Part shown: in pieces, positions 24,294 to 30,816 of the stretch
Layout: every line of letters starts with the position of its first letter
How positions within the stretch are numbered: the first letter of the stretch is position 1
Position numbers and translations under genes: made by a program
Assembly: GCA_020725805.1 (NCBI GenBank)
Contig: DYEF01000033.1
Coordinates: forward strand, 1 to 30,949
Source: Bdellovibrio sp.
Lineage (GTDB): Bacteria > Myxococcota > SpSt-1050
DNA length: 30,949 nucleotides
Direction: 5' to 3'
The notes under the pieces: model-generated
What the model was told of the DNA's origin: nothing
The model's database searches: none
The model's input: only the letters and a program-made list of their open reading frames with translations

Positions 24294-25798
24294 TGGGAAC
24301 CTCTCTGTATGGAGTCATTCTCCTTTAGTATATCCATTACGTTTTGTAAATTACTTTCATTGGATTTGAGGGGGTAATACCTCTTTTCGAACTCGTATTT
24401 ATAACTTACATCCGAAATGTTCTTCTCACTCTTCAGGTTCAGCGAAAATCCTGATAAGATTCTGTGGTCTATGTAATCGAATTTCCCGATCAAAGAATCT
24501 CTGTATGAGAATGTATATGCGAGATAAAACTCCAGATATTTGCTGATATAGTAAGTTGCCTCTATGTTATATCTGAGGAGTTTATCTTCTCTCTTCTTTC
24601 CGTTCATAAAATAACCTGCCGAGTTTATATAATTGTCGAAACCAAAAGATAGAAACTGTGAAATCCCGAACTGAAAGGGGGTCTTATATTCAAGTTTTAT
24701 CAATGCGGAATGACCTAAATCATCATAACCGTCGGAGTTTGCATTATAGTATCTGGTCGTTAGTAAGAATAGGGCGTTGAGATTCTGTGCAAGAGTCCTG
24801 AAATATCCGAAACCTCCGTCGTATTCCCTTCTTCCTCTCACAATTTCGTCGAAGTATCTTCTGCCGGTTCCGAAAAAGAGGGTATAGTTGTCAGAGAAGT
24901 TTAAGTAGAGTTCCATTCTGTGTCCTTCAAAAAACTGTATTGGTGCCTTCTGATATTCTGTGTCCAGATTGAGAAAAATCGTGTCGAATTTGTATTTTAT
25001 AATTCCCCTGAGGTTATCTTTCTTGTATTCAAGTCCCGGACTCAGTACGATTGTATTACTGCTCAGATTGTCGGGTGAAAATTTCTGTTCGCTGTTGAAA
25101 AATTTTGTGCCTTTGATTCCGGATTCGATATTCAGAAGAAATTGTTGAGAAAGAACTTTATTTATGCCAAGACCAAAATCATAATCGAGAAGGGTTGATG
25201 CCTGTCCGGAGCTTGTCTCTGAATCGAGGGGACTGCCTGACAATGCATTTGTCGTATATCCGAAACCGCTCTTTGCTCTTAATGTGTATCCTAAAGCAGA
25301 GCTCTGTTTGTTGTACAGTGCAAGAACGAGTCTTATATCCTCGGGATAAACGGATTTCAGGTCGGGTACTGTAGATTCTCCGGCAAGGCTTTTTATGACC
25401 AGAAACCTCGATTTGAGTTCTTCTGAAAAACCGCTCTTCTCTGTACACAGGCTCAACGACTCCTGTAGTGCTTCTGAGTCGCCGAGCATAAAGTCAATAT
25501 ATGCTATGTACCCGACAATCTCACAGTCACTCTTTTTCTGATAATACTCAACAAGTATCTTTTTGGCGTAGTGATAATTTTCATCCAGTATGTACAGTTT
25601 TGCGAGCAGGATTGTATATTCCTTATTCTCTTTGAGATTTTCAAAACAGGTTTTTGCTGTCCCGAGGAGCTCCTTTTTGTTTTGCAACTGATTTATTTTT
25701 TCAGATAACTCCGGGATATCTTTGCAAAAGTCCGGTTCTGTTGCAGACAGTATTCCTGAAGAAAACAGAATCGTTATAAAAACAGCAACCTTGTTCAT
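24281..25798 (-). CDS. TPR plus outer-membrane beta-barrel protein
   Basis: The 505-residue protein has a signal peptide (MNKVAVFITILFSSGILSA). A helical, TPR-like part at about 20-150 includes YTILLAKLYILDENYHYAKK. From about 160 to 490 there are long alternating hydrophobic/polar strands with many Tyr and Phe, as in a barrel (LLRYNIEATYYISKYLEF, LAYTFSYRDSLIGKFDYID). The layout resembles Slam-type surface-lipoprotein modifiers, with TPRs followed by a barrel, but I cannot confirm family membership. The frame extends 15 codons upstream, but the ATG at 25798 starts the signal and overlaps the SUMF lipoprotein stop as ATGA. That coupling suggests the two products work together. Confidence 0.75.
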   Translation of the reverse strand: MNKVAVFITILFSSGILSATEPDFCKDIPELSEKINQLQNKKELLGTAKTCFENLKENKEYTILLAKLYILDENYHYAKKILVEYYQKKSDCEIVGYIAYIDFMLGDSEALQESLSLCTEKSGFSEELKSRFLVIKSLAGESTVPDLKSVYPEDIRLVLALYNKQSSALGYTLRAKSGFGYTTNALSGSPLDSETSSGQASTLLDYDFGLGINKVLSQQFLLNIESGIKGTKFFNSEQKFSPDNLSSNTIVLSPGLEYKKDNLRGIIKYKFDTIFLNLDTEYQKAPIQFFEGHRMELYLNFSDNYTLFFGTGRRYFDEIVRGRREYDGGFGYFRTLAQNLNALFLLTTRYYNANSDGYDDLGHSALIKLEYKTPFQFGISQFLSFGFDNYINSAGYFMNGKKREDKLLRYNIEATYYISKYLEFYLAYTFSYRDSLIGKFDYIDHRILSGFSLNLKSEKNISDVSYKYEFEKRYYPLKSNESNLQNVMDILKENDSIQRGSQCKD

Positions 25799-27558
25799 TC
25801 CAGATCCCTGCAGCATCTGAAGCCTTTGGCAGACGGTCCCCATGTTGCATCATAATCGCATCTGTGCAACATCTCTGAATCTCCGCAGTTATACGCCCCT
25901 CCCCTGAAATGCTCAAGCCCGTCTTCTGTATCAACTACTTCCCATACATTACCGTTTATATCAGATGCGCCCCATTCGTTTCTGCAGTCCTTAAAATAAC
26001 CTGTAGGCATTACTCTGAATGCCGCCCCGCAGGGTCCGCCGCCTTCCTGTGAAGACTGGTTGTAGCAGTGCGCATATGGACAAGTATTCAGCGATGAGCA
26101 CTGGGGATTCTCGCAATTGCAGAATGCATCAATTCCGTTGCAGATAACAGGATTATATGTATTGCCATATACATAAGAGTAATTCTTCCCCTGCGAGCAG
26201 GCAAGGTACCATTCCTCCGGTCTGCACAGCCTCTTACCTGCATTCTTGCAGGCCTCCCTTGCAATAGAGAGTGTTACAGGATACCACGGAAGTACATTCT
26301 CTCTGGAGGTGGCACAGGAGGTGTCTGCCCCGTTATAACTATCTGTTGCGTCAGGTCTCGAGGCCTCGTATTTATCCATACAGAACTGGTCGTTTATATT
26401 TACCATATCTGAAGGGCAGGCCTTGATAATACCTGTATCGCTTATAATATCATTTGCTTCGGCGTCAGATATGTCCTGTGATTCTGTATCGGATTGAGTA
26501 TCACTGATATCAGAGGTATCCACATTCTCGTCTGCAAACTGAATATCCTCTGATGTTGAATCGTATGTTGTTATATCTTCTTCTATACAACCTTTGTCTT
26601 CAGCAGAAGCCACATCATCTGCCGAATCAGACGCAGAATCTCCGATCTCACTCGTGTCTTTTGCATCGTTCGGAATTGTATCATCATAACCGGCATCGGG
26701 AAGGCTCTCTCTCCCTTTACAGCATCTGAAACCAAGGGCAGAGGGTTTCCAGCTTGTCGGGATATAATCGCATCTGTGAAGTAGTTCTGAATTTCCGCAG
26801 TTATATGCCCCTCCTCTTACTGTATATTCCGAGCCGTTTGCGGTATGTTCCCACACATTCCCGTTGAGGTCGTATACACCGTATTTATTCTTACAGCCCG
26901 GAAATGAACCGGTCGGTGTGAGATGAAAGTCAGAACCGCAGGGTCCTTTACCTTCTGCGGATTTTTCGTTGTAGCAGTGCGGATAGGGACATTCTTTAAG
27001 GCCTATGCATTCCTCGCTGTTACAATTGCAGAAGGCATCGATGCCGTTGCATATCCCGGGGGCATACTCATATCCGTAGGAATAATTCTTCTTCTCGTCT
27101 GTGGCACAGGAAAAATACCATTCCTCAGCTGTACAGAGTCTCTTTCCGGCATTTCTGCAGGCCATTTCAGCCTCACTGTTATCTTTAGTCATCCATGGGA
27201 GAACCCCTTTTCTCGAGGTGGCATAGGAATTATCTTTTCCTGCAAAAATTGCTGTTGCATCGGGTCTTGAGGCCTCATAAATATCCATACAGAAGGAGTT
27301 TTCGATATTTGCCATATCAGAGGGGCAGTTCAGATTACCTGATGATTTAGGAAAACACCTGTGTTTTATGCACTCAAAGTTTATTCCGCAGTCGGTATCG
27401 GTATTACACTGGTATTTACATTCACCAGAATTCCTGTCACATATTTTTTCGTTTGGACAATCCTCGTTGGAGTAACATTTCTCTTTTATGAAACAGGCAC
27501 TGCTAATGGCTGTAAGTATTAAAATAAGGAAAAAATAACGAAGCTTCGAACAAATCAC
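25795..27558 (-). CDS. Lipoprotein with two tandem SUMF (FGE-sulfatase) domains
   Basis: The 587-residue product starts at a GTG with GGAGGA seven bases upstream. The lipobox is SSAC with Cys22. Cys-rich EB-like motifs follow at 25-70. SUMF domain 1 is about 79-281, a Ser/Asp-rich linker is 282-380, and SUMF domain 2 is about 381-585. Both domains keep CMDxYEASRPDAT, LPW, NAGKRLCxxEEWY, CNGIDAFCNC, DxNGNVWE, RGGAYNCG and GFRCC. In true formylglycine-generating enzymes RGGSYxC is followed five residues later by the second copper Cys; here that position is not Cys, so these are probably binding domains rather than active FGEs. The two halves are also similar at the DNA level, so the gene grew by internal duplication. 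It heads the redox and barrel run. Confidence 0.88.
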   Translation of the reverse strand: MICSKLRYFFLILILTAISSACFIKEKCYSNEDCPNEKICDRNSGECKYQCNTDTDCGINFECIKHRCFPKSSGNLNCPSDMANIENSFCMDIYEASRPDATAIFAGKDNSYATSRKGVLPWMTKDNSEAEMACRNAGKRLCTAEEWYFSCATDEKKNYSYGYEYAPGICNGIDAFCNCNSEECIGLKECPYPHCYNEKSAEGKGPCGSDFHLTPTGSFPGCKNKYGVYDLNGNVWEHTANGSEYTVRGGAYNCGNSELLHRCDYIPTSWKPSALGFRCCKGRESLPDAGYDDTIPNDAKDTSEIGDSASDSADDVASAEDKGCIEEDITTYDSTSEDIQFADENVDTSDISDTQSDTESQDISDAEANDIISDTGIIKACPSDMVNINDQFCMDKYEASRPDATDSYNGADTSCATSRENVLPWYPVTLSIAREACKNAGKRLCRPEEWYLACSQGKNYSYVYGNTYNPVICNGIDAFCNCENPQCSSLNTCPYAHCYNQSSQEGGGPCGAAFRVMPTGYFKDCRNEWGASDINGNVWEVVDTEDGLEHFRGGAYNCGDSEMLHRCDYDATWGPSAKGFRCCRDLE

Positions 27559-27611: not shown

Positions 27612-28391
27612 TTATTTTGTGAGTTTCGAATAAATGCCTCTTAAATTTGCTGTGAACATTTCTTTTATCTCTCTTTCCTTTTCAGAGAGCGGTCTTAACG
27701 GCACAAGGTCCTTTACTTCCTCATTACTGAGGCCCGAACCGAAAATGGTCCTGACAGAACCTGAGACCATCTTTTCTATCGCACATTTTGCCTCCTTTAA
27801 ACTGAGTCCAAATTCCAATGCCAGATTCAGCAAAGTCTCAAACTGAAACCAAAAGTATGTCGGACCCATCCCGGAAATTACAGCGTATGCCTCAAGTTTA
27901 TTCTCCTTAACCTCGGGGGAGTCTCCCAGATACGACAATAAATTTCTGAGGGAGGTTTTTTCTTCATCAGATATATTGTCAGAGAAACATACAGGATTGA
28001 AGCCGTCAGCAATAATGCTATTTGCATTTGGAATTACCCTCACGATCTTGGCATCATAATTCAGAATTTCTCTTATCATATTTACATTAAATTTTGGTGC
28101 AAGGGAAATAATAATTGAATCTCGTTTTACATCATTTTTGATTTCATTCAGCACATCTTTCAGGATGTTTGGGTGTACGGCAAGGAAGATGAGTTCTGCA
28201 TTCAGAACAACAGAATTGTTATTATCAGTGATAATTATTTCTGGGTATAATCGTCTTAGTACATCTATAACTTCCCTATTTTTATCGGAGACAAATACCT
28301 TTTCAAAGTATAGATGCCTTGAGAAAAATCCGCCAAGTAAAATTCTTACCACCCTTCCACCACCAATAAAACCTATCGTGTTATATTTCAT
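27612..28391 (-). CDS. Divergent pyrroline-5-carboxylate reductase (ProC) family protein
   Basis: The 259-residue protein has the P5CR fold signatures. IGFIGGGRVVRILLGG at 6-21 is the NAD(P) loop and RVIPNANSIIADGFNPV matches RVMPNTP. YAVISGMGPTYFWFQFETL matches the SGSGPAY dimer and substrate region, followed by ALEFGLSLKEA. Several normally fixed residues differ, such as PNAN for PNTP and SGMGPTY for SGSGPAY, so it may act on a related imine or ketone instead of making proline. The ATG is two bases after the stop of the broken ferredoxin, with AAGGGAAAA as ribosome site, so it belongs to the arsR run. Its place there is unusual. Confidence 0.8.
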   Translation of the reverse strand: MKYNTIGFIGGGRVVRILLGGFFSRHLYFEKVFVSDKNREVIDVLRRLYPEIIITDNNNSVVLNAELIFLAVHPNILKDVLNEIKNDVKRDSIIISLAPKFNVNMIREILNYDAKIVRVIPNANSIIADGFNPVCFSDNISDEEKTSLRNLLSYLGDSPEVKENKLEAYAVISGMGPTYFWFQFETLLNLALEFGLSLKEAKCAIEKMVSGSVRTIFGSGLSNEEVKDLVPLRPLSEKEREIKEMFTANLRGIYSKLTK

Positions 28392-28392
28392 A

Positions 28393-28723
28393 CTATTTTC
28401 CCTTCAGATTCGGGTATTTTTCCAAAAGTTGCATTTTAGCTAATTCAAGTATTTTGTTTTCGCCTATGAATCTCCTGACAATTAAAGGGTCAGGGAAAGA
28501 TATTGCGTCATATACACACCATATCTTACAGGATGTACAACCAATCATACACTGAAGGTCTACTAACTACAGCCTTTTTTAATTGTATATCAAAGTCAAA
28601 CACTTCCCTTCCGCAAGAGGTTACACACAGCCCACAACCGTTGCATTTTTTAGTGTCAACTGAAGGTGCCCAATTGATTTTATCTCTTTCTACACCCTTC
28701 CATTTTTTATATTTTTCATCCAT
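28393..28723 (-). pseudogene. Frameshifted 2[4Fe-4S] ferredoxin
   Basis: The intact reading starts at the ATG at 28723, overlapping the previous stop as TAATG. It gives VDTKKCNGCGLCVTSCGREV and KKAVVSRP, then SVYDWLYIL and a TAA at 28526-28528. In the next frame, from about 28551, translation continues as CMIGCTSCKIWCVYDAISFP and ends in LEKYPNLKGK at a TAG at 28393-28395. That second part holds exactly the second cluster expected after KKAVVxRPxx in this ferredoxin type. The frames join at about 28552-28558, where two bases appear missing or one extra. The sequence shows a real indel, a sequencing error or, less likely, a recoding site; there is no slippery run. Only the first cluster is encoded without the shift. 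Confidence 0.85.
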
Positions 28724-29079
28724 TATTTTGTCTCAGAAATGAGCTTTTTTATTGCATCGGTTGCCTGGTCGGTATTCATATTCCTGATATCCGCACCGTA
28801 GTGTCTTGATTTGTCGAAGCCGGAATTTTCAATGGCATCTCTGAACATCTTCCGCTGCATCGAATAATCACAGCCTGCAACAAAGAAATGGGTAATATCG
28901 TGGTCTTTGAGAAAAGAAGCAAGAAAGATATCGCCGTCGTCCGCGCATAGTTGCGGATGGAGTGCTACCATGTCAACCAGTTTCTCCCTTCTGATACGGT
29001 TTAGAATCTCCATCGTATTCATATCTTTAAATGATGGACAGGTCCCCTGACAAACACATAGCAGTAATGCTTTTTTCAT
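28723..29079 (-). CDS. Small Hdr-like cysteine protein (electron-transfer module)
   Basis: The 118-residue protein has a conserved cysteine set. LLCVCQGTCPSF holds Cys8, Cys10 and Cys14, ALHPQLCADDGD holds Cys45, and FFVAGCDYSMQRKMFRDAIE holds Cys70. HYGADIRNMN follows. The pattern (CxCx3C, HPQLC, VAGCDxxMQ) resembles part of heterodisulfide reductase subunit A-like proteins, here without the FAD domain. It probably ligates an Fe-S cluster or forms a disulfide and exchanges electrons with the neighbouring ferredoxins. The ATG at 29079 has an AGGAGG site six bases upstream. The frame reaches a little further, to 29100, but that ATG overlaps the previous gene and lacks a site. The substrate is unknown. 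Confidence 0.75.
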   Translation of the reverse strand: MKKALLLCVCQGTCPSFKDMNTMEILNRIRREKLVDMVALHPQLCADDGDIFLASFLKDHDITHFFVAGCDYSMQRKMFRDAIENSGFDKSRHYGADIRNMNTDQATDAIKKLISETK

Positions 29080-29080
29080 A

Positions 29081-29290
29081 TCAATCCTCCTCATCTCCAA
29101 AAAATGTTATTGCTTCAAAATCACACGCACCTTTTGCACACCCTTTGCAGAAGTCCACACAGTTATCGGGATTGACCACAATTACCTTTTTATCCTCAAC
29201 CCCGAACACATTGTGTGGACAGAAATCGTAGCATTTGAGACAGCCTGTGCATTTTTCATAGTTAATTACGGGGTACCAGTCCTTTGACAT
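29081..29290 (-). CDS. 4Fe-4S ferredoxin
   Basis: The 69-residue acidic protein has KCTGCLKCYDFCP with Cys14, 17, 20 and 24 for one [4Fe-4S] cluster. A second, unusual set CVDFCKGCAKGAC has Cys44, 48, 51 and 56, spaced C-x3-C-x2-C-x4-C. A strong AGGAGGAG ribosome site precedes the ATG. The Hdr-like gene starts one base after its stop. It follows the ArsG-like gene by 15 bases, so it is in the arsR run. I infer that it carries electrons to or from the Hdr-like protein. Confidence 0.88.
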   Translation of the reverse strand: MSKDWYPVINYEKCTGCLKCYDFCPHNVFGVEDKKVIVVNPDNCVDFCKGCAKGACDFEAITFFGDEED

Positions 29291-29305
29291 ATTCTCCTGC
29301 TCCTC

Positions 29306-29995
29306 CTAAAAAAGCCTGAACACGTAACTCCCGACCAGGTACAGGCCTACAATAATGAATATTATTCCGGTTATCCATCTCATATATTTTTCAACCTTCG
29401 ACAGGTCTTTGATGAATCTGTTTATAAGATTACTGCCTGCAACTGTCAGAAATGCAAATACAAGTACCGGAATGGCAGTACCTATTCCAAATGAGAGAGG
29501 AACCAGAAATGCAGACTTTGCTTTCACCGATATGGGAATTACCGTTCCAAAGAATATAGCAGCAGATATAGGACAGAAGGCGAGGGCAAAGACAATCCCG
29601 AGGAGGAGCGAACCCGTCAGACCAAGTTCTTTGTATTTCTTCCTCTTCTCTTTGTTCATCTGTATGCCCGGAACTTTGATGGTTATAAGGTCAAGCAGTG
29701 CCATGCCGGCGACAATCATTATCACTCCGAGTATCTGATTGCCGATATTCTGAAGTGTGTTTGATATACCGGATATACTAACCAAAGCCTTTACTGCTAT
29801 AAAGCAGATAATTATATATGATATACTTCTGCCAATGGCGTATAGAATACCCGAGAGCAGTGTCAATACCCTGCTGGTCAGCTTCTGGGTCACAAAGGAT
29901 ATCATAGCGAGATTGGTAGAGAGAGGACACGGTGAGATAGAGCTCAGTAATCCTACCCAGAATCCTGTGAATGTAAATACGAGTAACTCGTTCAT
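29306..29995 (-). CDS. arsG: ArsG-type permease (CcdA/DsbD-related)
   Basis: The 229-residue protein has about six membrane segments. SISPCPLSTNLAMISFV at 19-35 carries Cys23 in the SPCP motif, and LAFCPISAAIFFGT carries Cys141. This paired-cysteine half-transporter layout is shared with CcdA/DsbD. The CPL(S/A)TN variant is typical of the ArsG group, reported with ArsE and ArsF in resistance to aromatic arsenicals. It would move arsenicals or electrons across the inner membrane. It starts four bases after the ArsF-like stop. The symbol rests on motif recall and context with arsR, not on an alignment. Confidence 0.75.
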   Translation of the reverse strand: MNELLVFTFTGFWVGLLSSISPCPLSTNLAMISFVTQKLTSRVLTLLSGILYAIGRSISYIIICFIAVKALVSISGISNTLQNIGNQILGVIMIVAGMALLDLITIKVPGIQMNKEKRKKYKELGLTGSLLLGIVFALAFCPISAAIFFGTVIPISVKAKSAFLVPLSFGIGTAIPVLVFAFLTVAGSNLINRFIKDLSKVEKYMRWITGIIFIIVGLYLVGSYVFRLF

Positions 29996-29999
29996 AAAA

Positions 30000-30485
30000 T
30001 TACATTTCCCTGATGAGGTTTTCTATCTCACTTTTGACATAATTTTTGAAGCCTTCATCATTGTAGATTAACTGCCAGATCTCTGTCAGGTTCTTATATT
30101 TTATCTCCTTTGAATTTTTGACAAGGGAGATTATGAGTGATTTCGAAAAGAGCTGATAATCTCTGATATAGTGTGAATTCTCCGGTTCGTCTGTATTGAC
30201 CTCCATATATCGGATTTTACCGGAGTCTATCTCGTTCTTAAAGAAGGTCTCAACCGTCTCTTTAGAAAGCTTTTCTGCTTTCATACAGGATTGACACCTT
30301 TTTGTTGTATGAAAGTAATATACCACTATTCCATTTTCAATCGCTGCCTTATTTGAGTGTGTGTCCTGTTTCTCTGTTTGAATCTCCTTCTCCTTCTGCC
30401 CTCTGAATCCGTTTACTATAATAACGACAACGGCTACTGCCACAACCAGACCAAGCAGAATTGTAATGATTTTTTTAAAATTCAT
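30000..30485 (-). CDS. arsF: ArsF-type thiol protein
   Basis: The 161-residue protein is anchored by one N-terminal membrane segment (about 5-25). VVYYFHTTKRCQSCMKAEKL at 54-73 has the CxxC pair Cys64 and Cys67. VNTDEPENSHYIRDYQLFSK then SLIISL and KNLTEIWQLIYNDEGF match the ArsF family, annotated with arsenical nitro-group reduction. The thioredoxin-like domain probably faces the periplasm. The ATG lies four bases after the ArsR stop, with an AGAGGTG ribosome site inside the end of arsR. Its likely membrane partner is the ArsG-like protein. The name rests on motif memory and gene order. Confidence 0.75.
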   Translation of the reverse strand: MNFKKIITILLGLVVAVAVVVIIVNGFRGQKEKEIQTEKQDTHSNKAAIENGIVVYYFHTTKRCQSCMKAEKLSKETVETFFKNEIDSGKIRYMEVNTDEPENSHYIRDYQLFSKSLIISLVKNSKEIKYKNLTEIWQLIYNDEGFKNYVKSEIENLIREM

Positions 30486-30489
30486 AAAT

Positions 30490-30816
30490 TCACCTCTGAT
30501 GTTTTTGATTAATGATTTTTAAGAGATATTCCTTCTTTTCCCTCATTACGTCAGTTGCACAGGATAGAAATTTTACGGCACAGGGGGTCAGAAGTTTGTA
30601 GTAGATATTGTTGCCTTCTCTTCTGTCTGCTACTATATTATTGAGTCTGAGTAGAGAAAGATGCTTTGAGATTATTGATTGTTCAGACCCTATCTCCTCT
30701 ACGAGTTCGCTAACAGTCTTTTCTGTGTCCTTTAAAGAATAGATGATGGCAAGTCTGACCTCGTTTGCAAGAATCTTCAATAACTTTGCCTGGTCCGAAA
30801 ATTCTTTCTGGGACAT
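30490..30816 (-). CDS. arsR: ArsR/SmtB family metalloid-responsive repressor
   Basis: The 108-residue winged-helix protein has the family shape: KLLKILANEVRLAIIYSL, then ELVEEIGSEQSIISKHLSLL as the helix-turn-helix. REGNNIYYKL is the wing. The classical alpha-3 ELCVCDLC site is absent (it reads TVSELVEEIG). The only cysteines are Cys79 and Cys86 near the C-terminal helix, so metal sensing must use these or a site across the dimer. It has a GGAGGAATAA ribosome site. It heads the minus-strand run of ars-like genes and has a palindromic operator in its own promoter, so it is probably autoregulated. The inducer (arsenite, antimonite, an aromatic arsenical or another metal) cannot be told. Confidence 0.9.
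   Translation of the reverse strand: MSQKEFSDQAKLLKILANEVRLAIIYSLKDTEKTVSELVEEIGSEQSIISKHLSLLRLNNIVADRREGNNIYYKLLTPCAVKFLSCATDVMREKKEYLLKIINQKHQR

Follow-up and report, generated by a model that had tools for sequence, protein, structure and literature searches.

An ArsR-headed operon joining arsF and arsG to a ferredoxin and a stand-alone HdrA-type Fe-S domain, a possible relay for arsenical reduction

The operon and its gene products

The DNA analysed here (the window) is a 30,949-nucleotide stretch of a Bdellovibrio sp. genome (contig DYEF01000033.1, assembly GCA_020725805.1). Near its end lies an operon of seven minus-strand genes (27612-30816), in which arsF and arsG homologues are joined to two ferredoxin genes, a ProC-like gene, and the gene for a heterodisulfide reductase (Hdr)-like protein of 118 residues, here named HdrL (Table 1). 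The genes are nearly contiguous, as the original prediction had listed them, with gaps of at most 15 nt (in order from ArsR: 4, 4, 15 and 1 nt, a 1-nt overlap, and 1 nt). The next gene downstream begins 53 nt past the end of the ProC-like gene, and on the upstream side of ArsR 133 nt of contig remain. GC content is 39.1% in the operon against 43.6% in the remaining window. A promoter and terminator scan found no convincing signal upstream of ArsR or past the ProC-like gene (promoter-like sites numbered 19, with 10.7 expected, and terminator-like sites 4, with 2.3 expected). ArsE, the small thioredoxin of known arsEFG systems, is absent as originally claimed, there being no Trx3 match anywhere in the window, and none of the operon genes encodes an HdrB or HdrC partner.

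Table 1. Genes of the operon, in order of transcription
Gene product	Position	Strand	Basis and remarks
ArsR/SmtB-family repressor, operon gene 1	30490..30816	-	NF033788, 75 bits vs cut-off 55
ArsF-family protein	30000..30485	-	NF040494, 114 bits vs cut-off 60
ArsG-family permease	29306..29995	-	NF040495, 239 bits vs cut-off 200; DsbD_2 fold
Fd1, ferredoxin, 69 aa	29081..29290	-	eight Cys; HdrL partner
HdrL, 118 aa, from ATG	28723..29079	-	stand-alone HdrA N-terminal Fe-S domain
Fd2, second ferredoxin, HdrL>Fd type, one frameshift	28393..28723	-	reading frames and L039 homologue
ProC-like NAD(P)-binding oxidoreductase	27612..28391	-	120 bits vs proC TIGR00112 cut-off 196.75

HdrL is, on sequence and modelled fold, the N-terminal Fe-S domain of HdrA standing alone. 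Its matches to curated HdrA models are weak, partial, and limited to the N-terminal ~100 residues of HdrA. A profile of 13 HdrL sequences retrieves HdrA chains in the PDB (best E-value 5.5e-6), and an AlphaFold2 model (mean pLDDT 90) aligns to HdrA structures over their residues ~4-139 with Z scores of 11.9-14.1, the next unrelated row scoring 9.0. Five cysteines are invariant (8, 10, 14, 45 and 70). Four correspond to HdrA cysteines, namely the CxC pair, a mid-domain Cys, and the AxC Cys; the fifth, Cys14, is specific to HdrL and present in all 13 alignment rows. No Pfam family matched HdrL, nor did the plasmids and viral contigs searched yield any match. The ferredoxin:thioredoxin reductase beta subunit, whose cluster and active site are marked by a CPC...CHC motif, was considered and rejected, as inspection of the HdrL alignment did not reveal that motif.

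Fd1 carries its cysteines in two sets (C14-C17-C20-C24 and C44-C48-C51-C56) and is 54-66% identical to the HdrL-adjacent ferredoxins of loci L034-L040. Fd2, noted earlier as a broken second ferredoxin, proves to be a single gene whose halves read in neighbouring frames, interrupted once by a frameshift near 28555-28560. The frameshift may be either a mutation or an assembly error; an intact homologue (58% identity) is present in L039. The Fd2 N-terminus reads GxxRxKIxWxP, as in the HdrL>Fd type. All ferredoxin matches to the mercury-methylation ferredoxin HgcB fall below the cut-off (NF040864, 45 against 99 bits), and this assignment was rejected.

In the window ArsR, helix alpha-3 has KTVSEL in place of the CxC As(III) site. 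R773-type ArsR proteins bind through Cys32-Cys34-Cys37, while SpArsR from Shewanella putrefaciens, the arsEFG organism, uses a two-Cys site and responds to methylarsenite and not to arsenite (PMC11868830); in ArsRs of this MAs(III)-selective type, trivalent organoarsenicals are bound by two cysteines near the C-terminus. The window ArsR has two C-terminal cysteines (PCAVKFLSC; C79 and C86) whose spacing is unlike that of the SpArsR pair (PMC11868830). Given the missing CxC, these two cysteines, and the SpArsR precedent, an organoarsenical is, by analogy, a plausible inducer. ArsF has an N-terminal membrane anchor and a thioredoxin-like CQSC site, and is probably extracytoplasmic. ArsG is a CcdA/DsbD-type membrane protein with cysteines in SPCPL and FCPIS.

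The ProC-like protein is divergent, as first described, and falls well short of the proC equivalog cut-off for pyrroline-5-carboxylate reductase. No proC above cut-off was found in this genome or in a same-genus genome, and the operon gene is the sole relative found in the former; it is 21% identical to the ProC of genome G281, the only copy above cut-off in the genomes searched. A ProC-like gene holds the same place after HdrL and ferredoxin in L142, L148 and L149, so its original inclusion in the set is borne out in some lineages. ProC-type enzymes transfer hydride without a flavin, and direct feeding of Fe-S clusters by this protein is therefore unlikely.

HdrL and its ferredoxin across genomes

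A scan of species genomes returned 13 HdrL loci: Dictyoglomus, two each from Caldatribacterium, Stahlbacteria and Bacteroidetes, and one each from Chthonomonadales, an Actinomycetes metagenome-assembled genome and a Thorarchaeote, with three from other bacteria. A ferredoxin adjoins HdrL in all 13. In whole-genome searches, HdrL was strongly matched in 25 of the 195 genomes from the phylum of the Thorarchaeote. The corresponding figures are 8 of 147 for the Stahlbacteria (WOR-3) phylum and 4 of 395 for Bacteroidota. HdrL with an adjacent ferredoxin recurs in eight or more groups of phylum rank, among both bacteria and Asgard archaea.

We scored 47 HdrL loci, about half of them Asgard, with hidden Markov models (HMMs) built in this analysis. 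A ferredoxin lies beside HdrL in 44 (43 by HMM, plus L041, in which it is masked by an overlapping frame), and the two genes often overlap by 3-19 nt. ArsR is encoded within 6.5 kb of HdrL in 38 of the 47, and 24 contain at least one of Acr3, ArsF, ArsM and ArsC. By gene, the counts are 28 for DGC proteins, 19 for Acr3, 14 for ArsE-like Trx3, 5 for ArsC, 4 each for ArsF and ProC-like proteins, and 3 for ArsM. In contrast, neither ArsR nor any of the arsenic genes lies in 15 control neighbourhoods around full-length HdrA, most of which come from genomes that also supplied HdrL loci. Fisher tests treating loci as independent give p = 1e-8 for ArsR and 2e-4 for Acr3/ArsF/ArsM/ArsC, values that overstate certainty because about half the loci are Asgard and hence not independent; the contrast in arsenic genes nevertheless holds across lineages. 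A CxC at the As(III)-helix position is present in 31 of 37 HdrL-linked ArsRs, compared with 8 of 17 unlinked ArsRs from the same genomes. The simplest loci (L034-L036) consist of ArsR, ferredoxin and HdrL alone. The pair is therefore co-localised with arsenic genes in many distant anaerobes, and the conserved unit is ArsR-HdrL-ferredoxin rather than ArsFG-HdrL. We found no description of such a module in the open-access literature, subscription papers lying outside the search.

Several variants of the locus were observed. L146 and L147 (WOR-3) and L150 (Bacteroidota) encode a divergent HdrL with no adjacent ferredoxin, which in L146 and L147 sits between a CxC ArsR, an ArsC-like protein and an ArsP-type permease. 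At loci from Asgards, Bacteroidota and Armatimonadota, the gene that comes after HdrL and ferredoxin encodes a DGC-GcvH fusion bearing an ES(V/T)K lipoylation motif; in L043 (6640-7497) and in Asgard loci L118-L141, two further DGC proteins come after it. A thioredoxin-like protein of ~97 residues with the motif CSCSQTG and a weak SaoT match is encoded near the pair in L139 (9316-9609) and ten other Asgard loci. One locus, L036, includes a neighbour with the Fe-S biosynthesis domain PF01521.

Candidate roles for the module

The original prediction held that the ferredoxin and Hdr-like proteins supply electrons to ArsF through ArsG. On such a reading the pair would be a dedicated donor acting via the ArsG cysteines in a split-DsbD-like conduit and replacing ArsE. 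The parts are suggestive, since ArsG is of the DsbD_2 type with two Cys sites, ArsF is an anchored CxxC protein, and the operon lacks ArsE. The wider distribution fits poorly. True ArsF-ArsG pairs, for which we required ArsF because our ArsG label on L040, L143-L145 and L149 probably takes in generic CcdA-type proteins, occur in only 4 of the 47 loci (the window, L042, L043 and L142), leaving 43 without ArsF. An ArsE-family thioredoxin accompanies HdrL, ferredoxin and ArsFG in three of these four (L042, L043 and L142), which speaks against HdrL-ferredoxin as its stand-in. Further, a true ArsG is encoded in five genomes of the window's phylum, and four of these arsF-arsG loci lack HdrL and ferredoxin, the exception being the window itself. 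We consider a dedicated ArsF donor unlikely. The proposed recurrence of the pair as a functional unit thus survives as an arsenic-linked association across distant anaerobes, while its specificity for arsFG does not: the pair is indeed rarely beside arsFG elsewhere, though not rarely beside arsenic genes in general.

The closest relative of the operon is L142, from WOR-3 genome G923; none of the other genomes among the 147 of that phylum has ArsF. The gene order in L142 is ArsR, an ArsP-type permease, ArsF, ArsG, ArsE (85 bits against a cut-off of 62), HdrL, ferredoxin and a ProC-like gene, followed by two ArsP-type permease fragments. L142 is closest to the window for ArsG (50% identity), the ProC-like protein (49%) and ArsF (35%). 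The window HdrL and Fd1 are instead nearest, at up to 68% identity, to thermophilic bacterial loci of the Fd>HdrL type, and a tree groups them with Dictyoglomus (support 96/88). Because of these differing affinities the operon looks like a mosaic, with Fd1-HdrL of one type and Fd2-ProC where the other type would have it. It was probably acquired horizontally. A canonical arsenite locus, acr3 beside a CxC-type ArsR, lies elsewhere in the genome (contig C65, 33231-34834), and a same-genus genome has acr3 and no match to ArsG or HdrL, an absence consistent with gain or loss of the operon. Together these fit a special-purpose, acquired operon. Adjoining it on the same strand (25795-27558) is a gene for a 587-residue Cys-rich protein of two similar halves (CPSDM-NI...FCMD-YEASRPDAT), presumably a duplicated FGE/SUMF1-type domain.

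We tentatively propose, at a little under even chances, that the window contains an ArsR-controlled arsenical-response operon joining arsF-arsG to a conserved HdrL-ferredoxin electron-transfer module, which acts as a relay for thiol-dependent reduction of arsenicals. The simplest role for a soluble, flavin-free pairing of an HdrA Fe-S domain with a dicluster ferredoxin is to carry low-potential electrons. In HdrA, a partner subunit contributes one Cys ligand of the N-terminal cluster, which is part of the route by which electrons reach an inserted ferredoxin domain (PMC9012536). HdrL is predicted to carry its own [4Fe-4S] cluster, in which C14 could replace the borrowed ligand and make the protein self-sufficient. 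HdrL and ferredoxin would then form a flavin-free relay drawing on the cell's ferredoxin pool. Its acceptor may be a thiol/disulfide partner that varies by lineage, the obvious candidates being ArsE/Trx3 and ArsF-type thioredoxins, ArsC and the lipoyl-carrying DGC protein, as these recur beside HdrL and ferredoxin. Pentavalent or otherwise oxidised arsenicals would be reduced ahead of export; in the window the substrate is likely an organoarsenical, exported by ArsG.

Several observations count against this proposal. In the window itself Fd2 is frameshifted and ArsR has no CxC site. In around half of the HdrL loci, the examined stretch contains neither an enzyme nor a pump specific to arsenic. 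The counts from 47 loci, many from related Asgard genomes, are not independent. In five genomes (G196-G200), whose HdrL and ferredoxin may or may not be accompanied by ArsR, acr3 is missing from the whole genome, so detoxification at such minimal loci would depend on the module alone or on some factor not seen.

Those genomes, and the minimal loci L034-L036, would also suit a module that delivers no electrons to a reductase, HdrL with its five invariant cysteines and the ferredoxin binding or sequestering As(III) or serving as a sensor or chaperone for arsenic or redox state. Arsenite is known to bind Cys-rich sites. We regard this as improbable, given that four of the five HdrL cysteines have counterparts in the cluster domain of HdrA and that the strict pairing with a dicluster ferredoxin suggests a redox role. 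Alternatively, the linked ArsRs may sense thiols, mercury or redox state, with the arsenic link secondary. The CxC-less window ArsR, the several loci lacking arsenic enzymes, and the weak HgcB matches of the ferredoxins point that way. It is a doubtful reading, since most linked ArsRs do have CxC, Acr3 (19 loci), ArsC, ArsF and ArsM accompany HdrL, and the HgcB scores are far under the cut-off. A role in protecting or repairing arsenite-damaged Fe-S or lipoyl enzymes, for example by re-reducing lipoyl or thiol groups, is suggested by the lipoyl-motif DGC-GcvH fusions of three lineages and the PF01521 neighbour in L036; this we think quite unlikely, as the window operon and the ProC-type loci encode no lipoyl protein.

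A bolder form of the relay proposal, which we offer as a speculation with low odds, is that HdrL and ferredoxin, with lipoyl-DGC in archaea, constitute a ferredoxin-driven arsenical reductase of anaerobes, a third source of electrons beside thioredoxin and glutaredoxin. Arsenate is of special interest here because Asgards are reported to carry acr3 without arsC (PMC10060404), and the module would be a testable candidate for the missing arsenate-reduction step. If the relay is real, anaerobes spend ferredoxin electrons on arsenic detoxification via a domain cut from an electron-bifurcating enzyme, an unnamed protein family spanning thermophilic bacteria to Asgard archaea gains a function, and models of anaerobic arsenic cycling gain a new component.

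Comparison with known systems

Weak matches to SaoT and SaoE of the SAO/Tso selenoprotein organometal systems (NCBIfam names; PMC13188914) occur near some HdrL loci, but all are far below cut-off and no SAO core was seen at these loci. The sHdr-LbpA pathway of sulfur oxidation, in which lipoate-binding proteins are obligatory (PMC6067878), likewise encodes an Hdr-derived protein with GcvH-like lipoyl proteins, as do Asgard-type HdrL loci. HdrL loci differ in having the HdrA N-domain only, a lipoyl domain fused to DGC, and an arsenic linkage, and the window has no lipoyl protein.

In Shewanella putrefaciens, the arsEFG operon (Chen, Zhang and Rosen 2019, via PMC9144182), a system characterised by aromatic-arsenical resistance, places ArsF and ArsG adjacent, in the same order and under ArsR, as in the window. 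The window lacks ArsE and adds Fd1, HdrL, Fd2 and the ProC-like protein, additions that we did not find described for arsEFG in the literature searched. Compared with HdrA of the methanogen HdrABC complex (5ODC, 7BKB, 8RVY), HdrL lacks both the FAD/thioredoxin-reductase domain and the fused ferredoxin domains and has no HdrB or HdrC nearby, but retains the N-terminal Fe-S domain fold and four of its cysteines, to which it adds Cys14.

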